From Phycisphaerae bacterium RAS1 (GTDB lineage: Bacteria; Planctomycetota; Phycisphaerae; UBA1845; Fen-1342): 64,000 nt of DNA. The notes beneath the pieces were generated by a model. The model searched no databases and was not told where the DNA came from. It was given only the letters and a program-made list of their open reading frames with translations. Both the position numbers and the translations under genes were made by a program. The number at the start of each line of letters is the position of its first letter. Position 1 is the stretch's first letter. Location: positions 2,852,001-2,916,000 of the forward strand of contig SMLU01000001.1 in NCBI GenBank assembly GCA_007859745.1, given 5' to 3'. Below, in pieces: positions 40,379 through 47,614 of this stretch.

Positions 40379-41283
40379 TTTTCTTCTTGCTGGGCAGCCC
40401 CGCGGCACGGGCACAATCCAATCCCGCCGGCGACGACGATCCGATGGGCGCCGTCGATGAGGCCGATGCACCCGCTCGACCCGGCGGCATGCCGCGGCTG
40501 GGCGGCGAACGCGAGCGGCCCTTCTTCGAGCCTTCTCCCGAAGACCGCGCCCCGCTCAAACCCGGTGAGGAAGACCAACTGCTGGCCTTCGCCGAAAAGC
40601 GGTTCCCCATCATGCATCGCCTGCTGGGCGAGGCCCGGCAGCGCAACCCGCGCGCGTTCGCGCGCCGGTTCGAGAACGAATTCGCCCCGCGGCTGCGGCA
40701 CCTGCAGCGCATCTACGCGGAGAACGAGGAGCTGGGCGAGCTGATGCGGCGGCACGCCGAGAACATGTTCCTCATGCAGCGGGCCGGGCGAATGCTGGCG
40801 AATAAGCAGACCCCGCCGGCGATGCGCGGGCGACTGACGCAGGAGGTGCGGCAGCACCTGCAAAGAATGGTCGAGCTCGAGCCGCGCATGCTCGAAACGC
40901 GGGCCAGGCAGTATGCCGACGACCGCTCCGGCTGGACCGACCGCCGGCTGGAGCGCGTGCTGGCCGGATCGGCGCCGAGCGAAGAGCAGACGCCGGAAAT
41001 GTCCAACGTGATCCACGCCTACCAGGTCGATAACGACACGGTCCGCCGCGAGGTCATGCGCGCAAAATTGCACGACCTGGTCGCGGCGCAGCTCGATCTC
41101 GACATCCGCCTGATGCGGCAACGCGCCGCGCAGCTTCGGCAGCGCGGGGACGACGAGATCGAGCAGCGCTGGCAGCGATTCCAGCAGCGAATCGGCGCCG
41201 CCCGCGGCGACAGCGACGCCCGTCCGAAGCGCCCCGGAAACCAGCCGGCGGACAAGCCGAACGGGAATTCACGTCGGCCGTAG
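40252..41283 (+). CDS. secreted helical protein of unknown function
   Basis: 343 residues from the only in-frame ATG. The hydrophobic signal-like segment (FSVPLCLCGCIFFLLG, then ARAQS) is encoded by the right arm of a family J intergenic repeat. The mature part is almost all helix, rich in Arg, Glu and Gln (RHAENMFLMQRAGRMLANKQ). It could form a coiled coil. It is the last gene of the kinase-sigma group and ends next to a family B palindrome. No known family. Confidence 0.65.
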   Translation: MRSKGTRRYWDKGRAALQKPARPLSLYPFIPFFSVPLCLCGCIFFLLGSPAARAQSNPAGDDDPMGAVDEADAPARPGGMPRLGGERERPFFEPSPEDRAPLKPGEEDQLLAFAEKRFPIMHRLLGEARQRNPRAFARRFENEFAPRLRHLQRIYAENEELGELMRRHAENMFLMQRAGRMLANKQTPPAMRGRLTQEVRQHLQRMVELEPRMLETRARQYADDRSGWTDRRLERVLAGSAPSEEQTPEMSNVIHAYQVDNDTVRREVMRAKLHDLVAAQLDLDIRLMRQRAAQLRQRGDDEIEQRWQRFQQRIGAARGDSDARPKRPGNQPADKPNGNSRRP

Positions 41284-41292
41284 GGCCCTGTT

Positions 41293-41318
41293 GGGTGGGA
41301 CGGGCGTCTCGCCCGTCC
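41293..41318. repeat. family B palindrome
   Basis: GGGTGGGACGGGCG with TCTCGCCCGTCC, just after the stop of the preceding gene. Confidence 0.7.
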
Positions 41319-41328
41319 GTACGAGCGC

Positions 41329-41483
41329 GTAGGGCAGGTCGCGGCGTTGTCGAGGAATGTGACAATTTCGGTGAATGAGGCAGGCCGAAAAAGCCCGCGA
41401 CCTGCCGTTTTTCGCTGGCGTCTTACGCCCCCGGGCGTCTTACGCCCCCGCGGCAGGTCGCAAAAGGCCGCGACCTGCCCTAC
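41329..41483. repeat. family F (RAYT-type) element, copy 1
   Basis: Begins GTAGGGCAGGTCGCGG and ends CCGCGACCTGCCCTAC. Inside, GGCAGG/CCTGCC arms form two hairpins. This copy is the outer part of a 241-bp duplication. Confidence 0.88.
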
Positions 41484-41569
41484 CGCAGCGCTTGTTGCAT
41501 CAATGCGAAGTCGCCAAGATCAACATCTCCGTCCTCGTCAAAATGGGCCGCTTCGAAATCCGCCAGCGC
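41484..41569. repeat. duplicated 3' end of the lipase gene
   Basis: 86 bp nearly identical to 41724-41809, the last 28 codons of the lipase-like gene, copied between two family F elements. It differs by only a few bases. Confidence 0.9.
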
Positions 41570-41723
41570 GTAGGGCAGGTCGCGGCGTTGTCGAGGAATG
41601 TGACAATTTCGGTGAATGAGGCAGGCCGAAAAAGCCCGCGACCTGCCGTTTTTCGCTGGCGTCTTACGCCCCGGGCGTCTTACGCCCCCGCGGCAGGTCG
41701 CAAAAGGCCGCGACCTGCCCTAC
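41570..41723. repeat. family F element, copy 2
   Basis: Same ends and almost the same sequence as copy 1. Its outer end overlaps the stop codon of the lipase-like gene: TAG of GTAGGG in reverse orientation. Confidence 0.9.
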
Positions 41724-43735
41724 CGTAGCGCTTGTTGCATCAATGCGAAGTCGCCAAGATCAACATCGCCGTCCTCGTCAAAATCGGCCGCTTCGAAATC
41801 CGCCAGCGAGCCGCCCGGCGGAGGCTCCAACACCCCCGGTCCGTTCATGACATTGACCAGCCGGAGCGCGTCGTCGATATCAATGTCACCGTCGAAATCC
41901 ACGTCCCCTGCCGGCAGCGCCAGAATCGCCAGATTGTCGATCAAGCACATCCCTCCAAGCTCGCCGTCGCCGCGCAAGACGAAATTCAACTGCCCGGTCA
42001 TCCCCGCAAAGCTCCGCACGGCGATCGGCCCGCTGCTGCGCAGGCCGCCGCGCGCCAGCGAAACATCCGCCGCATCGTAATAGATGATCTCATTGCCCAC
42101 ATACACGGTCAGCGTTTCCGCCACGGCAAACGCGTCGAACATATAGTCAAACTGGAACACAAACGTATCGCCCGGCCAGGCAAATTCACGGAAGAACGAC
42201 GCCGTGCCCACATCCACGAGCCGCACGACCACATTCGCCGGGTTGGCCGGGTCCGAACCCGACGCCACCACCGCCCCCGTCCCGGTCCAGTCCGCCGCCG
42301 TCTCCATCCCGTTGAACCACAGGAGCCGCAGCCCGCCGAAATCCGGCGGCGGCGGCGTGCCGGCGCGGGCCCGCTCGTACACGTTTTGGCAATACGTCCC
42401 CGCGCCCTGGAACGTGCCGCCGAGATTCACTTCGCAATCCTGCTCATCGGTCTCGATGCACACCGTGGGCGACACCTGGCACGCTCCGACCGCCCAGAAC
42501 TGCCGCACCTCTGTGCCCTCGTGAAAGCGGCCGGCCGGAAGCGTCCGCGGATCGAGCACCGACGGAATCGGGAAGCCGCGATCATCCGCCTCGCGTCCGA
42601 ACGTCTGCATGAACAAGATGCCGCCGCTCACCGCGTCGCCAAACCAGCTTCCATAGGGCGAGCCGCAGGCGCCCTCGTAGTCGTCGCCCTTCACGGCGCT
42701 GTGCAGCCAGGTCTCCAAATGATCCGGATTCAGCCGAATGCTGGTGACGTTGGGCGGCGTGCCATCGTAAGGCGCGCCGAACGCCCCGGTCGCCAGGTCG
42801 CCGTCGCCGTAGTAAATGGCCACGTGGCCGATCTTGGACGGCGTTTCGAGCAGGTCCATCGTGTCGATCGCGCCCCAGCGCGGCGTATCGAGCATCGTGA
42901 GCGTATCGACCATCAGACCGCGATCGTGAAGCCCTTCGGCGGCCCGCGCCAGGAGTCCGCCGCCGTGCGAGTGGCCGATGAAATGAAGTGCGCTGCCCAG
43001 CGAGGGCTGATCCGGATCGGGCAGGGCCGCGACCAGGGCGCGTGCCAGTTCGTTTCCCTTCCGGCCGGCGTTGAAATCCGAGAGGCTCGCGTCCAAGAGC
43101 GCACCGAAGGCGCGCAGCGCGAGGTAGCCCGGCCCGCCGCCGCCAAACGTCGCCACGAGGTCCCAGAAGCTCAAGTCGATATCCAGCAGGCAATTCGGAT
43201 TCGACCCGCGCAGACAATCGCCCCACTCCCACCCCAGAATGTTCGCCTCCGGCACCCCGTCGTTGTCCGAATCCAGCGCGTCGGCGATCGCCGCGGCGAT
43301 CGTGGACATGCCGTAATCCAGCGTCTGCGGTGGGCAGCCGTCGACCGACTGCGGTCCGAGCGTGTCGTCCCAGCCGTGCGTCAGAAGGTACGTTGGTTGG
43401 GCCAGGTTGATGCTGATCGCCCCTGGTGGGTTGACGAAGCGCCCCAGACTCGTGTCCCAGACGCGCAGCCGGGCCAGGTCGACCTCGATCACCGGCACCG
43501 ACTGCCCCGGCGCGGGCTGATCCGGCGGCGGGGCGGGCGCGTCGATCCCGAACGAATTGGAATCGGCCGAGGCGCGCGAGACGAGCGTTACATCCAGCTC
43601 CAGCGGCGGCGAATCGTTCCACGTCAGGCCGCCCACGAGCGGAATGGTGTTCACACCGAACGCCGGCGAGTCGGCCCAGCGGACGTCGGCCAGCGCGACG
43701 GTTGCCGCAAAGACGGCCATCACGAGGACCGCCAC
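41720..43735 (-). CDS. secreted lipase-like alpha/beta hydrolase with dockerin-like tail
   Basis: 671 residues from a GTG at 43735. The hydrophobic start (VAVLVMAVFAATVALA) works as a signal peptide but lacks the usual basic n-region. Residues about 95-310 are an alpha/beta-hydrolase: THGWDDTLG before the nucleophile Ser256 in FIGHSHGGGLL. A beta-sandwich module (about 475-600) follows, then a dockerin-like tail from about 610 (GDVDFDGDIDIDDALRLVN and DFDEDGDVDLGDFALMQQAL). No Shine-Dalgarno lies upstream; a family F element starts three bases before the GTG, so the true 5' end may be lost. Confidence 0.78.
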   Translation of the reverse strand: MAVLVMAVFAATVALADVRWADSPAFGVNTIPLVGGLTWNDSPPLELDVTLVSRASADSNSFGIDAPAPPPDQPAPGQSVPVIEVDLARLRVWDTSLGRFVNPPGAISINLAQPTYLLTHGWDDTLGPQSVDGCPPQTLDYGMSTIAAAIADALDSDNDGVPEANILGWEWGDCLRGSNPNCLLDIDLSFWDLVATFGGGGPGYLALRAFGALLDASLSDFNAGRKGNELARALVAALPDPDQPSLGSALHFIGHSHGGGLLARAAEGLHDRGLMVDTLTMLDTPRWGAIDTMDLLETPSKIGHVAIYYGDGDLATGAFGAPYDGTPPNVTSIRLNPDHLETWLHSAVKGDDYEGACGSPYGSWFGDAVSGGILFMQTFGREADDRGFPIPSVLDPRTLPAGRFHEGTEVRQFWAVGACQVSPTVCIETDEQDCEVNLGGTFQGAGTYCQNVYERARAGTPPPPDFGGLRLLWFNGMETAADWTGTGAVVASGSDPANPANVVVRLVDVGTASFFREFAWPGDTFVFQFDYMFDAFAVAETLTVYVGNEIIYYDAADVSLARGGLRSSGPIAVRSFAGMTGQLNFVLRGDGELGGMCLIDNLAILALPAGDVDFDGDIDIDDALRLVNVMNGPGVLEPPPGGSLADFEAADFDEDGDVDLGDFALMQQALR

Positions 43736-43737
43736 GG

Positions 43738-43927
43738 GTAGGGCAGGTCGCGGCGTGGTCGGGAAATGTGTCGTTTTCGGTAAATGCGGCAGGCCGGAAA
43801 AGCCCGCGACCTGCCGTCTTTCGCCTCTCGGCAGGTCACAAACGGCCGCGATCGGTCCGTCGCCGCGCGCGTCGCCGCGGCGCGTGTCCATTCCGGATTC
43901 CGCGCGGCCATTTGCGACCTGCCCTAC
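43738..43927. repeat. family F element, copy 3
   Basis: Full-length element, GTAGGGCAGGTCGCGG to GCGACCTGCCCTAC, between the lipase gene and the RAYT gene. Confidence 0.88.
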
Positions 43928-43941
43928 ATGGTTCGCGGGGG

Positions 43942-44484
43942 TCACTCGAACTCCGGCAATTGAATGCGGACGGTGGTCCACCAATCCGGGGCCAACTCGC
44001 CGCGGCGAAGGTGTTCGTGCACCGTCGACCATGGCCATTCCTCCGGCGTCCGGACGTAGCCGTGTTTCACCGGGTTCATGTGTATGTAATCCCGATGCAT
44101 GATGTAATCCGCCTCGTCGCGCAGGCGATGCTCCCAATAGCGGGCCTGGAATACGCCGCGGCGGCGTTGCCGTTTGTGATCCGCCGTTTGCCCGGTTTCG
44201 ATTCCGCCGGCGGAGAGAAACGCCGTGGTGAAGCGCGATTTGATGAGCCGCCAGCGCAGCGGGAAATCGTCGTCGTCCGTCGGCAGTTGCCAGATGCAAT
44301 GCAGGTGGTCCGGAAGGAGCACACAGGCGGGCATGTCGAAGGGCCATTTGGCGCGCGTCGCGTCGATGGCCTCGCGCAGGAACCGGCGGGATTGGTCGCT
44401 CGTGAGGATCGGGCGGCGCCCGGCGGCCACGACGGTGAAGAAATACGCCGCCCCGCGCTCGCGCCAGCGGACGTAGTTGGGCAT
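43942..44484 (-). CDS. REP-associated tyrosine transposase (RAYT)
   Basis: 180 residues. Y1-type HUH nuclease: His60 and His62 in LLPDHLHCIWQLP are the metal-binding HUH pair, and Tyr133 in RDYIHMNPVKHGYV is the expected nucleophile. These motifs are diagnostic of RAYTs (TnpA-REP), which nick REP palindromes on single-stranded DNA. It is flanked on both sides by family F elements (43738-43927 and 44521-44846), as expected for its substrate. Start ATG at 44484. The frame is intact. Confidence 0.92.
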   Translation of the reverse strand: MPNYVRWRERGAAYFFTVVAAGRRPILTSDQSRRFLREAIDATRAKWPFDMPACVLLPDHLHCIWQLPTDDDDFPLRWRLIKSRFTTAFLSAGGIETGQTADHKRQRRRGVFQARYWEHRLRDEADYIMHRDYIHMNPVKHGYVRTPEEWPWSTVHEHLRRGELAPDWWTTVRIQLPEFE

Positions 44485-44520
44485 AAGCGTCCCAGGTCGC
44501 GGGCATGTCGGCCCGCATTT

Positions 44521-44846
44521 GTAGGGCAGGTCGCGGCGGTGTCATAAGACGCCACGTTTGGGTGAAAAACAACCGGCCACAAACGACCCGCGACCTGCCG
44601 ATCGTCGCCGCCGACGCACGCCGGCCGGGCGGCAGGTCGCAAATGGCCGCGTTGAGCCGTAGGGCAGGTCGCGGCGGTGTCATAAGACGCCACGTTTGGG
44701 TGAAAAACAACCGGCCACAAAAGACCCGCGACCTGCCGGCCGTCGCCGCCGCCGTACGCCGGCCGGGCGGCAGGTCGCAACTGGCCGCGTTGAACATCAT
44801 CGAGCATCGGGGCGTCGCCGGCGCGGCCATTTGCGACCTGCCCTAC
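44521..44846. repeat. family F elements, tandem pair (copies 4 and 5)
   Basis: Two copies start at 44521 and 44659 and share GTGTCATAAGACGCCACGTT. The outer end is GCGACCTGCCCTAC at 44846, 3 bp from the stop of the FGE-like gene. Together with copy 3 this frames the RAYT gene. No gene is seen in the 365-bp gap. Confidence 0.88.
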
Positions 44847-44849
44847 CCA

Positions 44850-46037
44850 TTATGGAGTCCCGTTCGAACACCGAAACCCGTAGCGGGAGACGCGGTTCGT
44901 CGGCGAGTCGCTGGTGCGCATGGACGAGCGGCAGTCCGCGACGGGGTTGGTCCACGTCCCGCCGCGCAGGACACGGTTGGTACCTGAGGTCGGTCCGGTC
45001 GGGTCGCTCGACGGCGAACTGGAATAGTAGATGGCCGAATACCAGTCATAGCACCACTCCCACACATTCCCGCTCATGTCGTAGCAGCCGTAGTAGCTCT
45101 TGGCGTCCTGCGTCGTGTAGCTCCCATAGGTCGAGCCGTTGTAGTAGCCGACGGGCGTCGTGCCGTTGTCGTAGGGGTCGCCGCTGTTGGCGTAATTCGC
45201 GCGCCGACCGTCGAGCACCGTCGGGCCGCCGCCGTCCGTGTGCTCGCCGAAGCGCCAGTGCCGGTTCAGGTCCGGATCCCAGCCGGCGGCCTTTTCCCAC
45301 TGGGCCTCGGTCGGCAGGCGATACGTGCCGACCGGCAGCCCCTCGATCGCGCTGCGCCAGTCGCAGAAGTGTGTCGCGTCGGTGTGATTCACGTACACCA
45401 CGGGGTGGTTGGCGAAGCCGGACATGGGGGCGTAGAAATAAGCGCCCGAGACGCCGGAGCGCAGAATCTTCTGATTCGCGTCCCAGTGGTCGTCGTTTCC
45501 ACCAAAGTTGAGGAACTGGCAGTAGAACGCGTTGGTCACTTCGTACTTGTCGATGCGAAATGTGGAGACCCAGACCTCGTGCACCGGGCGCTCCTCCGCG
45601 CCTCCTTCACTCCACGGGTCGCCCATCATGAAATGGCTGCCGGGCACAAGGACCATCGGGGCCAAACCGTTGCCGTCGTCGGCGAAGACGCGCACCTTGA
45701 CGTTGCCCAGGACGGCCCCGGGGATGTCCGCGCCCGCGTCCCAGATGATGTGGCGGTTGCTGCCGGGGGTGATGCCCGCGCCGACGTGGCCGGTGAACGT
45801 GCGGGCGGGCACCTTAAAGGTCGTCCCGCCGTCGCTGCTGACCATGGCCCAGACGGTGCAGGCGTCGCCGTCGGCGTCGGCGAGCGTGTAATACACGTCC
45901 ACCAGGCGCGAGGCGTCGGCCCGCTGGGCGGCGGTGACGTTCGAGACGACCGGCGGGTTGTTGGCCCGGGCCGCGGCGGCGGCGGCGAGCAGGAGGGCGG
46001 GAAGAAGGAGCATCCGAAACGGGCGGGGCGGTTTCAT
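44850..46037 (-). CDS. secreted FGE-sulfatase-fold protein, probably not a sulfatase activator
   Basis: 395 residues from the ATG at 46037 (GAGGG 10 nt upstream), with a signal peptide. After an N-terminal beta domain (about 25-135) comes the formylglycine-generating-enzyme fold: VPGSHFMMGDPW, RLPTEAQWEKAAGWDP, YDMSGNVWEWCYDWY, RVLRGGTW and YGFRCSN. In true FGE two cysteines (GGSYMC-x4-C type) form the active site; here the first is Asn (WTNPVADC), so only the second remains. It likely acts as a structural or binding module. Both ends lie next to family F elements. Confidence 0.83.
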   Translation of the reverse strand: MKPPRPFRMLLLPALLLAAAAAARANNPPVVSNVTAAQRADASRLVDVYYTLADADGDACTVWAMVSSDGGTTFKVPARTFTGHVGAGITPGSNRHIIWDAGADIPGAVLGNVKVRVFADDGNGLAPMVLVPGSHFMMGDPWSEGGAEERPVHEVWVSTFRIDKYEVTNAFYCQFLNFGGNDDHWDANQKILRSGVSGAYFYAPMSGFANHPVVYVNHTDATHFCDWRSAIEGLPVGTYRLPTEAQWEKAAGWDPDLNRHWRFGEHTDGGGPTVLDGRRANYANSGDPYDNGTTPVGYYNGSTYGSYTTQDAKSYYGCYDMSGNVWEWCYDWYSAIYYSSSPSSDPTGPTSGTNRVLRGGTWTNPVADCRSSMRTSDSPTNRVSRYGFRCSNGTP

Positions 46038-46071
46038 GGGGTTATTCCCTCGCGTGAAACGTGCGGTGATG

Positions 46072-46153
46072 GTAGGGCAGGTTGCAAATGGCCGCGTTGG
46101 GGGCGGTTCGTTGATCGGACGTAATCCACGCGGCCATTTGCAACCTGCCCTAC
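46072..46153. repeat. family F short element, copy 6
   Basis: 82 bp, GTAGGGCAGGTTGCAAATGG to GCAACCTGCCCTAC. Only the outer hairpin arms remain. It lies upstream of the FGE-like gene. Confidence 0.85.
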
Positions 46154-46243
46154 AAGAACGTGCGTCATCCGGGGCCGGCGGGCGCAGAAATATTCTGGAT
46201 AGGGTCAGTCTACCCTCCGCCGGGGTTGGGGCCAAACGGATTT

Positions 46244-46449
46244 GTAGGGCAGGTCGCGGCGTTGTCGAGGAATGTGACATTCTCGGTGAATGTAGCAGGC
46301 CGCCAAAGCCCGCGACCTGCCGCGTTTCGCGCCCGCGGCCGTCCTCGCCGGCCGACGACCGCCGGCCGGGCGGCAGGTCGCAAATGGCCGCGATTCACGC
46401 GCTCGAATGGCGGGATGTCACCGGCGCGGCCATTTGCGACCTGCCCTAC
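46244..46449. repeat. family F element, copy 7
   Basis: Full-length copy, starting GTAGGGCAGGTCGCGG and ending GCGACCTGCCCTAC, 4 bp before the stop of sucC. Nothing else is seen in the 46038-46453 gap. Confidence 0.87.
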
Positions 46450-46453
46450 ACCT

Positions 46454-47614
46454 TCACACGCTCGCGCACACCTGCCTTGCCGCGTCCGTCAAATCCGCCG
46501 CCGGCTTCAATTGCGGGATCGCCGCTTCTTTCAGCATCTTGCGGGCGATCTCGACGTTCGTGCCTTCCAGCCGCACGACGACCGGAATCTTGAAGCCGAT
46601 TTCCTTCGCCGCCTTGATGAGCGCGTCCGCAATCACGTCGCACTTGGCGATCCCGCCGAAGATGTTCACCAGGATCGCCTTCACCTTCGGGTCCGAGAGG
46701 ATGATGCGAAACGCCTCGACCGCGCCCTCCGGCGAGACTGAGCCGCCGACGTCCAGAAAATTTGCCGGCATCCCGCCGTGGAGCTTGATGATGTCCATGG
46801 TGGACATGGCGAGGCCGGCGCCGTTCACCAGGCAGCCGATGTTGCCGTCCAGCGCGATGTAGGTCAGGTTGTGCTCGCTGGCGCGCAGCTCCGACGCGTT
46901 CTCTTCCGACGGATCGAACATCGCCTCGATGTCGGGATGGCGGAAGAGCGCGTTGTCGTCGAAGTTGAACTTGGCGTCGATCGCCAGCATCTTCCCGTCC
47001 GGCGTCTGCACCAGCGGGTTGATCTCGGCCAGCGAGCAGTCCTTTTCAACGAAGAGCTTCGCCAGCTTCAGCATGATGTCCGCGGCCGCCTTGGCCTGCT
47101 CGCCGGACAGGCCGATCTGGGCCGCCAGCGATTGGGCCTGAAACGGGCGGAAACCCAGGTGCGGATGGAACCAGGCTTTCTTGATCGCGTCCGGGTTCTT
47201 GGCGGCGACTTCCTCAATCTCGACGCCGCCTTCGGCGCTGGCCATCATCACCGGCACGCGGCGGGCGCGGTCGAGCACCACGCCGAGGTAATACTCCTTG
47301 GCGATGTCCACCGCGGCGGCGAGCAGAATCTTGCTGACCTTGACGCCCTGCGGGCCGGTCTGCTTGCTGACCATCGGGTTCGCCAACATGCGGGCCGCAT
47401 TCTCCGTCGCTTCCTGTGCGGAGTTGACGAGCTTGACGTACCCGGCCTTGCCGCGCCCGCCGGCGTGAACCTGGGCTTTGACCACAACGGTCTTGGCGCC
47501 GACGCGATTGAACGCGGCCGCGACCTGGTCGGCCTTGTCGATGACTTCGCTGGGCGGGACGACGACGCCGGCCTGTTGCATGATCGCGCGGGCCTGGTAT
47601 TCATGGACTTTCAT
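46454..47614 (-). CDS. sucC: succinate-CoA ligase, beta subunit
   Basis: 386 residues. With SucD it makes succinate and ATP/GTP from succinyl-CoA in the TCA cycle. ATP-grasp N-terminus (MKVHEYQARAIM ... VVKAQVHAGGRGKAG), AEINPLVQTPDG, and the C-terminal GLAMSTMDIIKLHGGMPANF, LDVGGS and NIFGGIAKCDVIA are all typical. The ATG at 47614 follows GGAG; a TAGAAT box lies 30 bp upstream. sucD, usually adjacent downstream, is not here; a family F element follows directly. Confidence 0.95.
   Translation of the reverse strand: MKVHEYQARAIMQQAGVVVPPSEVIDKADQVAAAFNRVGAKTVVVKAQVHAGGRGKAGYVKLVNSAQEATENAARMLANPMVSKQTGPQGVKVSKILLAAAVDIAKEYYLGVVLDRARRVPVMMASAEGGVEIEEVAAKNPDAIKKAWFHPHLGFRPFQAQSLAAQIGLSGEQAKAAADIMLKLAKLFVEKDCSLAEINPLVQTPDGKMLAIDAKFNFDDNALFRHPDIEAMFDPSEENASELRASEHNLTYIALDGNIGCLVNGAGLAMSTMDIIKLHGGMPANFLDVGGSVSPEGAVEAFRIILSDPKVKAILVNIFGGIAKCDVIADALIKAAKEIGFKIPVVVRLEGTNVEIARKMLKEAAIPQLKPAADLTDAARQVCASV

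Follow-up and report, generated by a model that had tools for sequence, protein, structure and literature searches.

A probable REPtron: a RAYT gene and its REPIN family clustered within 5.2 kb

Introduction

Repeats that crowd around a transposase-like gene may be the substrate of that enzyme, or they may have multiplied beside it by other means. This question is raised by a 5.2-kb cluster in the window analysed here, the whole 64,000-nucleotide stretch at 2,852,001-2,916,000 of contig 1 (genome 5.5 Mb, 7 contigs). The original prediction described a HUH/Y1 transposase of the RAYT type lying between full-length copies of a repeat, family F, which was proposed to be its probable REP element and to have been mobilised locally. 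GTAG REPs in Planctomycetes, several transposase-repeat pairs per genome, RAYT-REP co-evolution and TAG stop codons supplied by GTAG have all been published (PMC3733652, PMC2817692, PMC6006769, PMC3116915).

Results

The transposase gene

By sequence, the ORF at 43942-44484 (minus strand) is a REP-associated tyrosine transposase (RAYT/TnpAREP), in line with the original prediction. The protein scores 175 bits against NCBIfam NF047646 (REP_Tyr_transpos; cut-off 80) and 17.2 bits against Pfam Y1_Tnp, which is under that model's cut-off of 23. The only relative with a solved structure is the TnpAREP of E. coli (4er8; E=3.6e-35, phmmer). The HUH motif is H60-L-H62, the catalytic tyrosine is Y133, aligned to Y115 of the E. 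coli enzyme, and N137 is aligned to N119. Of the residues with which E. coli TnpAREP reads its guide (W94, Q95, E100, H101 and R104), the last four are retained as Q113, E118, H119 and R122. Among RAYT relatives, H60 and H62 are present in 36/36 and Y133 in 34/36. The equivalent of W94 is F112; this position is Trp in 35/36, the window RAYT being the sole exception, and the substitution could mean that activity is altered or lost. The closest named relatives are from MAGs of Phycisphaerae and Planctomycetota.

Structure of the F repeats

Seven F copies in one common orientation were found within 41329-46449. The features of the cluster are:

41329-41483, plus strand: F1, bipartite REPIN and the outer copy in the tandem duplication of 240 bp; left REP at 41329-41406, short right REP at 41452-41483
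41484-41569, minus strand: 86 bp repeated from the 3' end of the dockerin-domain gene, between F1 and F2
41570-41723, plus strand: F2, bipartite REPIN (left REP 41570-41647, right short REP 41692-41723)
43738-43927, plus strand: F3, bipartite REPIN lying downstream, past the RAYT stop; its left REP is 43738-43815 and its right REP, which has a long loop, 43830-43927
43942-44484, minus strand: RAYT/TnpAREP gene, 180 aa, assigned from the NCBIfam and 4er8 matches and residue conservation
44521-44658, plus strand: F4, REPIN with truncated right end, located upstream at 37 bp from the RAYT start and forming the first unit in the tandem duplication of 138 bp
44659-44846, plus strand: F5, full bipartite REPIN (left REP 44659-44737, right REP 44769-44846)
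46072-46153, plus strand: F6, double-foot hairpin GTAG...CTAC, 82 bp (fold -38.2 kcal/mol, z -9.9)
46244-46449, plus strand: F7, full bipartite REPIN that follows closely on the stop codon of sucC; left REP at 46244-46321, right REP at 46372-46449

The predicted count of seven copies in 41.3-46.5 kb and their coordinates were thus confirmed, with the qualification that six are bipartite and the copy at 46072-46153 is a single double-foot hairpin. Likewise, F copies do lie on both sides of the RAYT, but the nearest one upstream (44521-44658) is a truncated tandem copy and not a full-length element. The REPs flank the gene in inverted orientation, the right REP of F3 at 15 bp and the left REPs of F4/F5 at 37 bp from the ORF. 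The adjoining genes in the cluster encode a dockerin-domain protein, an FGE-sulfatase-domain protein and the CoA ligase SucC.

The F elements are REPINs/BIMEs. A bipartite copy consists of GTAG, a hairpin with a loop of ~50 nt, a spacer, an inverted hairpin and CTAC. Stems are 10-12 bp with GTAG at the 5' foot and begin with GGCAGGTCGC; the left stem is a perfect 12 bp (GGCAGGTCGCGG/CCGCGACCTGCC). The right hairpin is short in F1 and F2 (GGCAGGTCGCAAAAGGCCGCGACCTGCC) and enlarged in F3, F5 and F7. All bipartite copies except the truncated F4 (that is, F1, F2, F3, F5 and F7) have full right ends, with GTAG facing outwards on both REPs. The inner arm originally described as constant, AAGCCCGCGACC, is not so: GACCCGCGACC stands in its place in the copies starting at 44521 and 44659, and it is CCGCGACCTGCC that stays constant. 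The checks proposed with the original prediction, a fold and a GT[A/G]G tetranucleotide, both came out in its favour: in every copy GTAG stands directly at the foot of a foldback (DNA fold z -3.2 to -9.9). We also considered the left loop as a three-way junction. Two inner helices, differing in sequence between F1/F2 and F4/F5 with the appearance of covariation, are absent in F3 and F7. Conservation in the left hairpin is thus limited to the outer stem of 12 bp, and the junction was rejected. A palindrome (GTAGGGCCC / GGGACGGGCGTCTCGCCCGTCC) at 41280-41318, directly before F1, is unrelated to F.

The position of the copies suggests another role. None of the seven reaches further into a gene than a stop codon (the terminal CTAC of F2 supplies the TAG stop, 41720-41722, of the adjoining dockerin-domain gene), and no intergenic gap between the gene ending at 41283 and sucC (stop at 46454) is without a copy. 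F might thus consist mainly of RNA-level features of this minus-strand gene row (3' stabilisers, attenuators or terminators) that are kept for that purpose, and F4/F5 do contain two terminator-like stems on the minus strand. However, terminator-like sites number 7 against 4.6 +/- 1.9 in shuffled sequences, which is no clear excess, and the other copies have no T run. Searching Rfam with the F elements gave no family at or near the gathering score. As an RNA-level role also leaves the GTAG feet and the RAYT-linked sequence changes (below) unexplained, we regard it as very unlikely.

Distribution and origin of the F copies

Exact matches to GTAGGGCAGGT or its complement number 31 in the 5.5-Mb genome (2 for the reversed-pattern control), and 13 of these are in 41.3-46.5 kb; the binomial chance of 13/31 falling inside 5.2 kb is ~1e-31. 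Among the 18 outside the cluster, five (L005, L025, L026, L027 and L029) lack a hairpin and appear to be fortuitous matches within genes. Using two full copies as BLASTN queries, we found the bipartite left half with its long loop of ~50 nt only in this cluster genome-wide. About a dozen dispersed F relatives occur elsewhere in the genome, and these have only the ends or the right half in common with F.

Two tandem duplications were identified. First, 41324-41808 has a period of 240 with 98% matches and includes 86 bp of the 3' end of the dockerin gene. Second, 44521-44793 has a period of 138. Since two of the six bipartite copies arose in this way, only four need a mobility event. These four and the double-foot copy occupy separate gene junctions and have no flanks in common. 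The double-foot form is known from earlier work, in which loss of the centre of an inverted REP pair was suggested as a possible origin (PMC6006769). The predicted local mobilisation near the RAYT is therefore supported only in part: two of the six bipartite copies are tandem duplicates, and the other four may have been placed by the RAYT. We also tried the sucC sites of 23 relatives as empty sites for F7; F is missing after sucC in these, but the downstream neighbours differ, so they are not true empty sites.

These duplications bear on a second alternative, in which F spread near the RAYT by ordinary recombination only (tandem duplication, template switching and gene conversion) and the RAYT is inert or domesticated. 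It would suit the two plain tandem duplicates, one of which carries host-gene sequence, the restriction of the bipartite form to 5.2 kb and the Phe in place of W94. Against it stand the five copies at separate junctions without common flanks, and further evidence comes from the other REPs considered below.

Paralogous RAYTs and other REP families

The window RAYT is single-copy. The three next-closest RAYTs of the genome (46-56% identical) are each framed by a GTAG-REPIN of their own, GTAGGGTGGGTT, GTAGGCTGGGCT and GTAGGGTCCGC, respectively. Exact foot-plus-arm matches to these number 19, 126 and 124 genome-wide, with 8, 1 and 6 for the reversed-pattern controls; at 19 versus 8, the first is not clearly above its control.

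Such framing is also what would be expected if 43738-44846 were a whole mobile unit, an IS200-like composite in which F, RAYT and F transpose together: the segment starts with GTAG and ends with CTAC, the gene in it lies between REPs, and other RAYTs are framed likewise. Against this, the window RAYT is present once and its nearest paralogues carry other REPs, so that the identical multiple copies of a unit, by which IS200/IS605 elements are recognised, were not found in this genome. Moreover, REPtrons reportedly show no sign of moving as whole units (PMC6006769). Composite transposition is accordingly extremely improbable.

Other RAYT loci in the genome were noted in passing. Beside the RAYT of the GTAGGCTGGGCT family, an 81-bp REPIN unit is repeated four times in tandem (L032, 1033-1345, near 2268451-2268763 of contig 1). 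More divergent RAYT-like genes at L043, L045 and L051 (contig 1, 3087008 and 3081733; contig 4, 102446) are flanked by a GTAG hairpin, GTAGCGKCSGACCTC, possibly a further REP family. Finally, three RAYT-like genes with identical scores are spaced at exactly 1578 bp (L036-L038, contig 1, 2614672-2618295), with a fourth in inverted orientation beside them at 2618931-2619398. This array is either a tandem amplification or an assembly effect, and no GTAG REP was found within 500 bp.

REP sequence follows the RAYT lineage

We examined 37 distinct RAYT loci from this order and related Phycisphaerae, using a rule of stem >= 6, loop <= 12 and within 500 bp of the RAYT; an earlier, stricter rule (stem of 8 or more) overlooked many short REPs. 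GTAG was at a hairpin foot in 30/37 loci, as compared to 2/23 control sucC loci from relatives (Fisher p 3e-8). Among all 256 tetranucleotides (median of 1 locus), TAGG was found at 33 loci, representing the same sites with a one-base shift, and AATG at 13. The seven loci missed by the rule, which include the window's own long-loop REPs, also have GTAG REPs when the rule is relaxed or the sequence is inspected visually.

The seven bases that follow GTAG require 13 changes on the RAYT tree, versus 24.5 +/- 1.1 when shuffled (minimum 20 in 1000), and RAYT distance correlates with REP distance (Mantel r 0.19, p 0.002). These comparisons indicate that REP sequence is specific to, and co-evolves with, the RAYT lineage over several genera, supporting the proposal that F is the REP element of this RAYT. 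REP sequence that tracks RAYT phylogeny, together with related REPs scattered in this genome and others, argues against recombination as the only source of the F copies, and we consider that explanation unlikely.

A close pairing is with G019, a genome from another genus of the same family, whose RAYT is 55% identical to the window RAYT and ends directly in GTAGGGCAGGT, the TAG being its stop codon. Its REPINs are 103-104 bp and end in GGCAGGTCGCAAACGGCCGCGACCTGCCCTAC, versus GGCAGGTCGCAAAAGGCCGCGACCTGCCCTAC in F1/F2, and the right REP differs by one base. FastTree pairs the two RAYTs with support of 0.956, and the IQ-TREE tree does not resolve the pair.

As a cross-genome marker, the exact 11-mer GTAGGGCAGGT proved too coarse, as the copies examined in one genome (G047) were mostly another hairpin, GTAGGGCAGGTGCTCGCACCTGCC; a 32-nt F-type REP was used instead. 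This was found in 6/61 genomes (the present one, G019 and four of the same family), with 0 control matches. It is present in both genomes whose RAYT-flanking REP is GGCAGGT and in 4/59 others, so the correlation between F and RAYT that the original prediction called for is real but not strict. In G013, G016 and G026 the F-type REPs occur without a close RAYT, and in G011 they occur with a RAYT that has a different REP.

Two further observations concern stop codons. In at least six loci (L031, L056, L057, L061, L069 and L085), the TAG stop codon of the RAYT is the GTAG foot of a downstream REP. In a genome of another family (G033, locus L182), a different REPIN, GTAGGGTCCGC...GCGGACCCTAC, is exactly at the 3' end of sucC, the place of F7 in this genome, and its GTAG supplies the TAG stop of sucC.

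Discussion

We conclude that the locus is most probably a REPtron, in which a RAYT gene is flanked by its own REPIN family and the F REPs would be the enzyme's substrate. Direct support comes from the identity of the gene, the way F is built, the GTAG foot of the hairpins and a REP sequence that is coupled to the lineage of the RAYT; nicking and local spread are inferred from other TnpAREP enzymes. Following the biochemistry of the E. coli, Stenotrophomonas and Marinomonas proteins (PMC8266576, PMC6006769), a REP would fold in single-stranded DNA, such as that at the replication fork, and the RAYT would bind the hairpin, read GTAG, nick beside it via Tyr133 and then rejoin the strands. REPINs might thereby be copied or moved, preferentially nearby, with plain tandem duplication (the 240-bp and 138-bp units) adding two copies afterwards.

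One of the nearest known parallels, E. coli TnpAREP with its REP/BIME elements, is alike in catalytic core, four of the five guide-reading residues, GTAG-foot hairpin and inverted REP pairs at the gene. The window RAYT differs in having ~17 extra residues between HUH and Tyr as well as Phe for W94, and the unbulged 10-12 bp stems and long loops of F differ from the bulged REPs of E. coli. By its features, the locus resembles the TnpAY1 subclass 2.4 REPtrons (long unbulged REPs whose stem base has three G-C pairs, double-foot REPs and extra HUH-Tyr residues; PMC6006769). F loops of ~50 nt exceed the 2-20 bp tabulated for GTAG REPs in PMC3733652, where inner loops of up to 27 bp are also noted. 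The REPtrons of Rhodopirellula baltica and other GTAG families are alike by description in their GTAG REPs, several transposase-repeat pairs in a planctomycete and GTAG-supplied TAG stops (PMC3733652). Pseudomonas fluorescens SBW25 REPINs share the REP doublets, one REPIN type per RAYT and tandem arrays including flanking DNA, the last a published pattern, but they are spread in hundreds of copies, whereas F has few copies, gathered around its RAYT (PMC3116915). REP pile-up near the rayt gene rather than genome-wide is also published, for three marine gammaproteobacteria, a betaproteobacterium and Thauera, where phylum and REP sequence differ from those here (PMC2817692).

Only the ~50-nt loop and the W94F change are unusual details of this locus. 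The long-loop bipartite F could be a recently elaborated REPIN confined near its RAYT, at the start or as the last remnant of its spread, and W94F and the larger loop would then be paired changes in specificity; we give this idea a slim chance of being right.

The general RAYT-REP principle is already published, and what this locus adds is a well-supported RAYT-REPIN family for a planctomycete-like order. Whether REPs are compared inside this genome or among about 20 relatives, the stem varies with the lineage of the RAYT and the GTAG foot does not. Such natural enzyme-substrate pairs would let the stem-reading residues be mapped.
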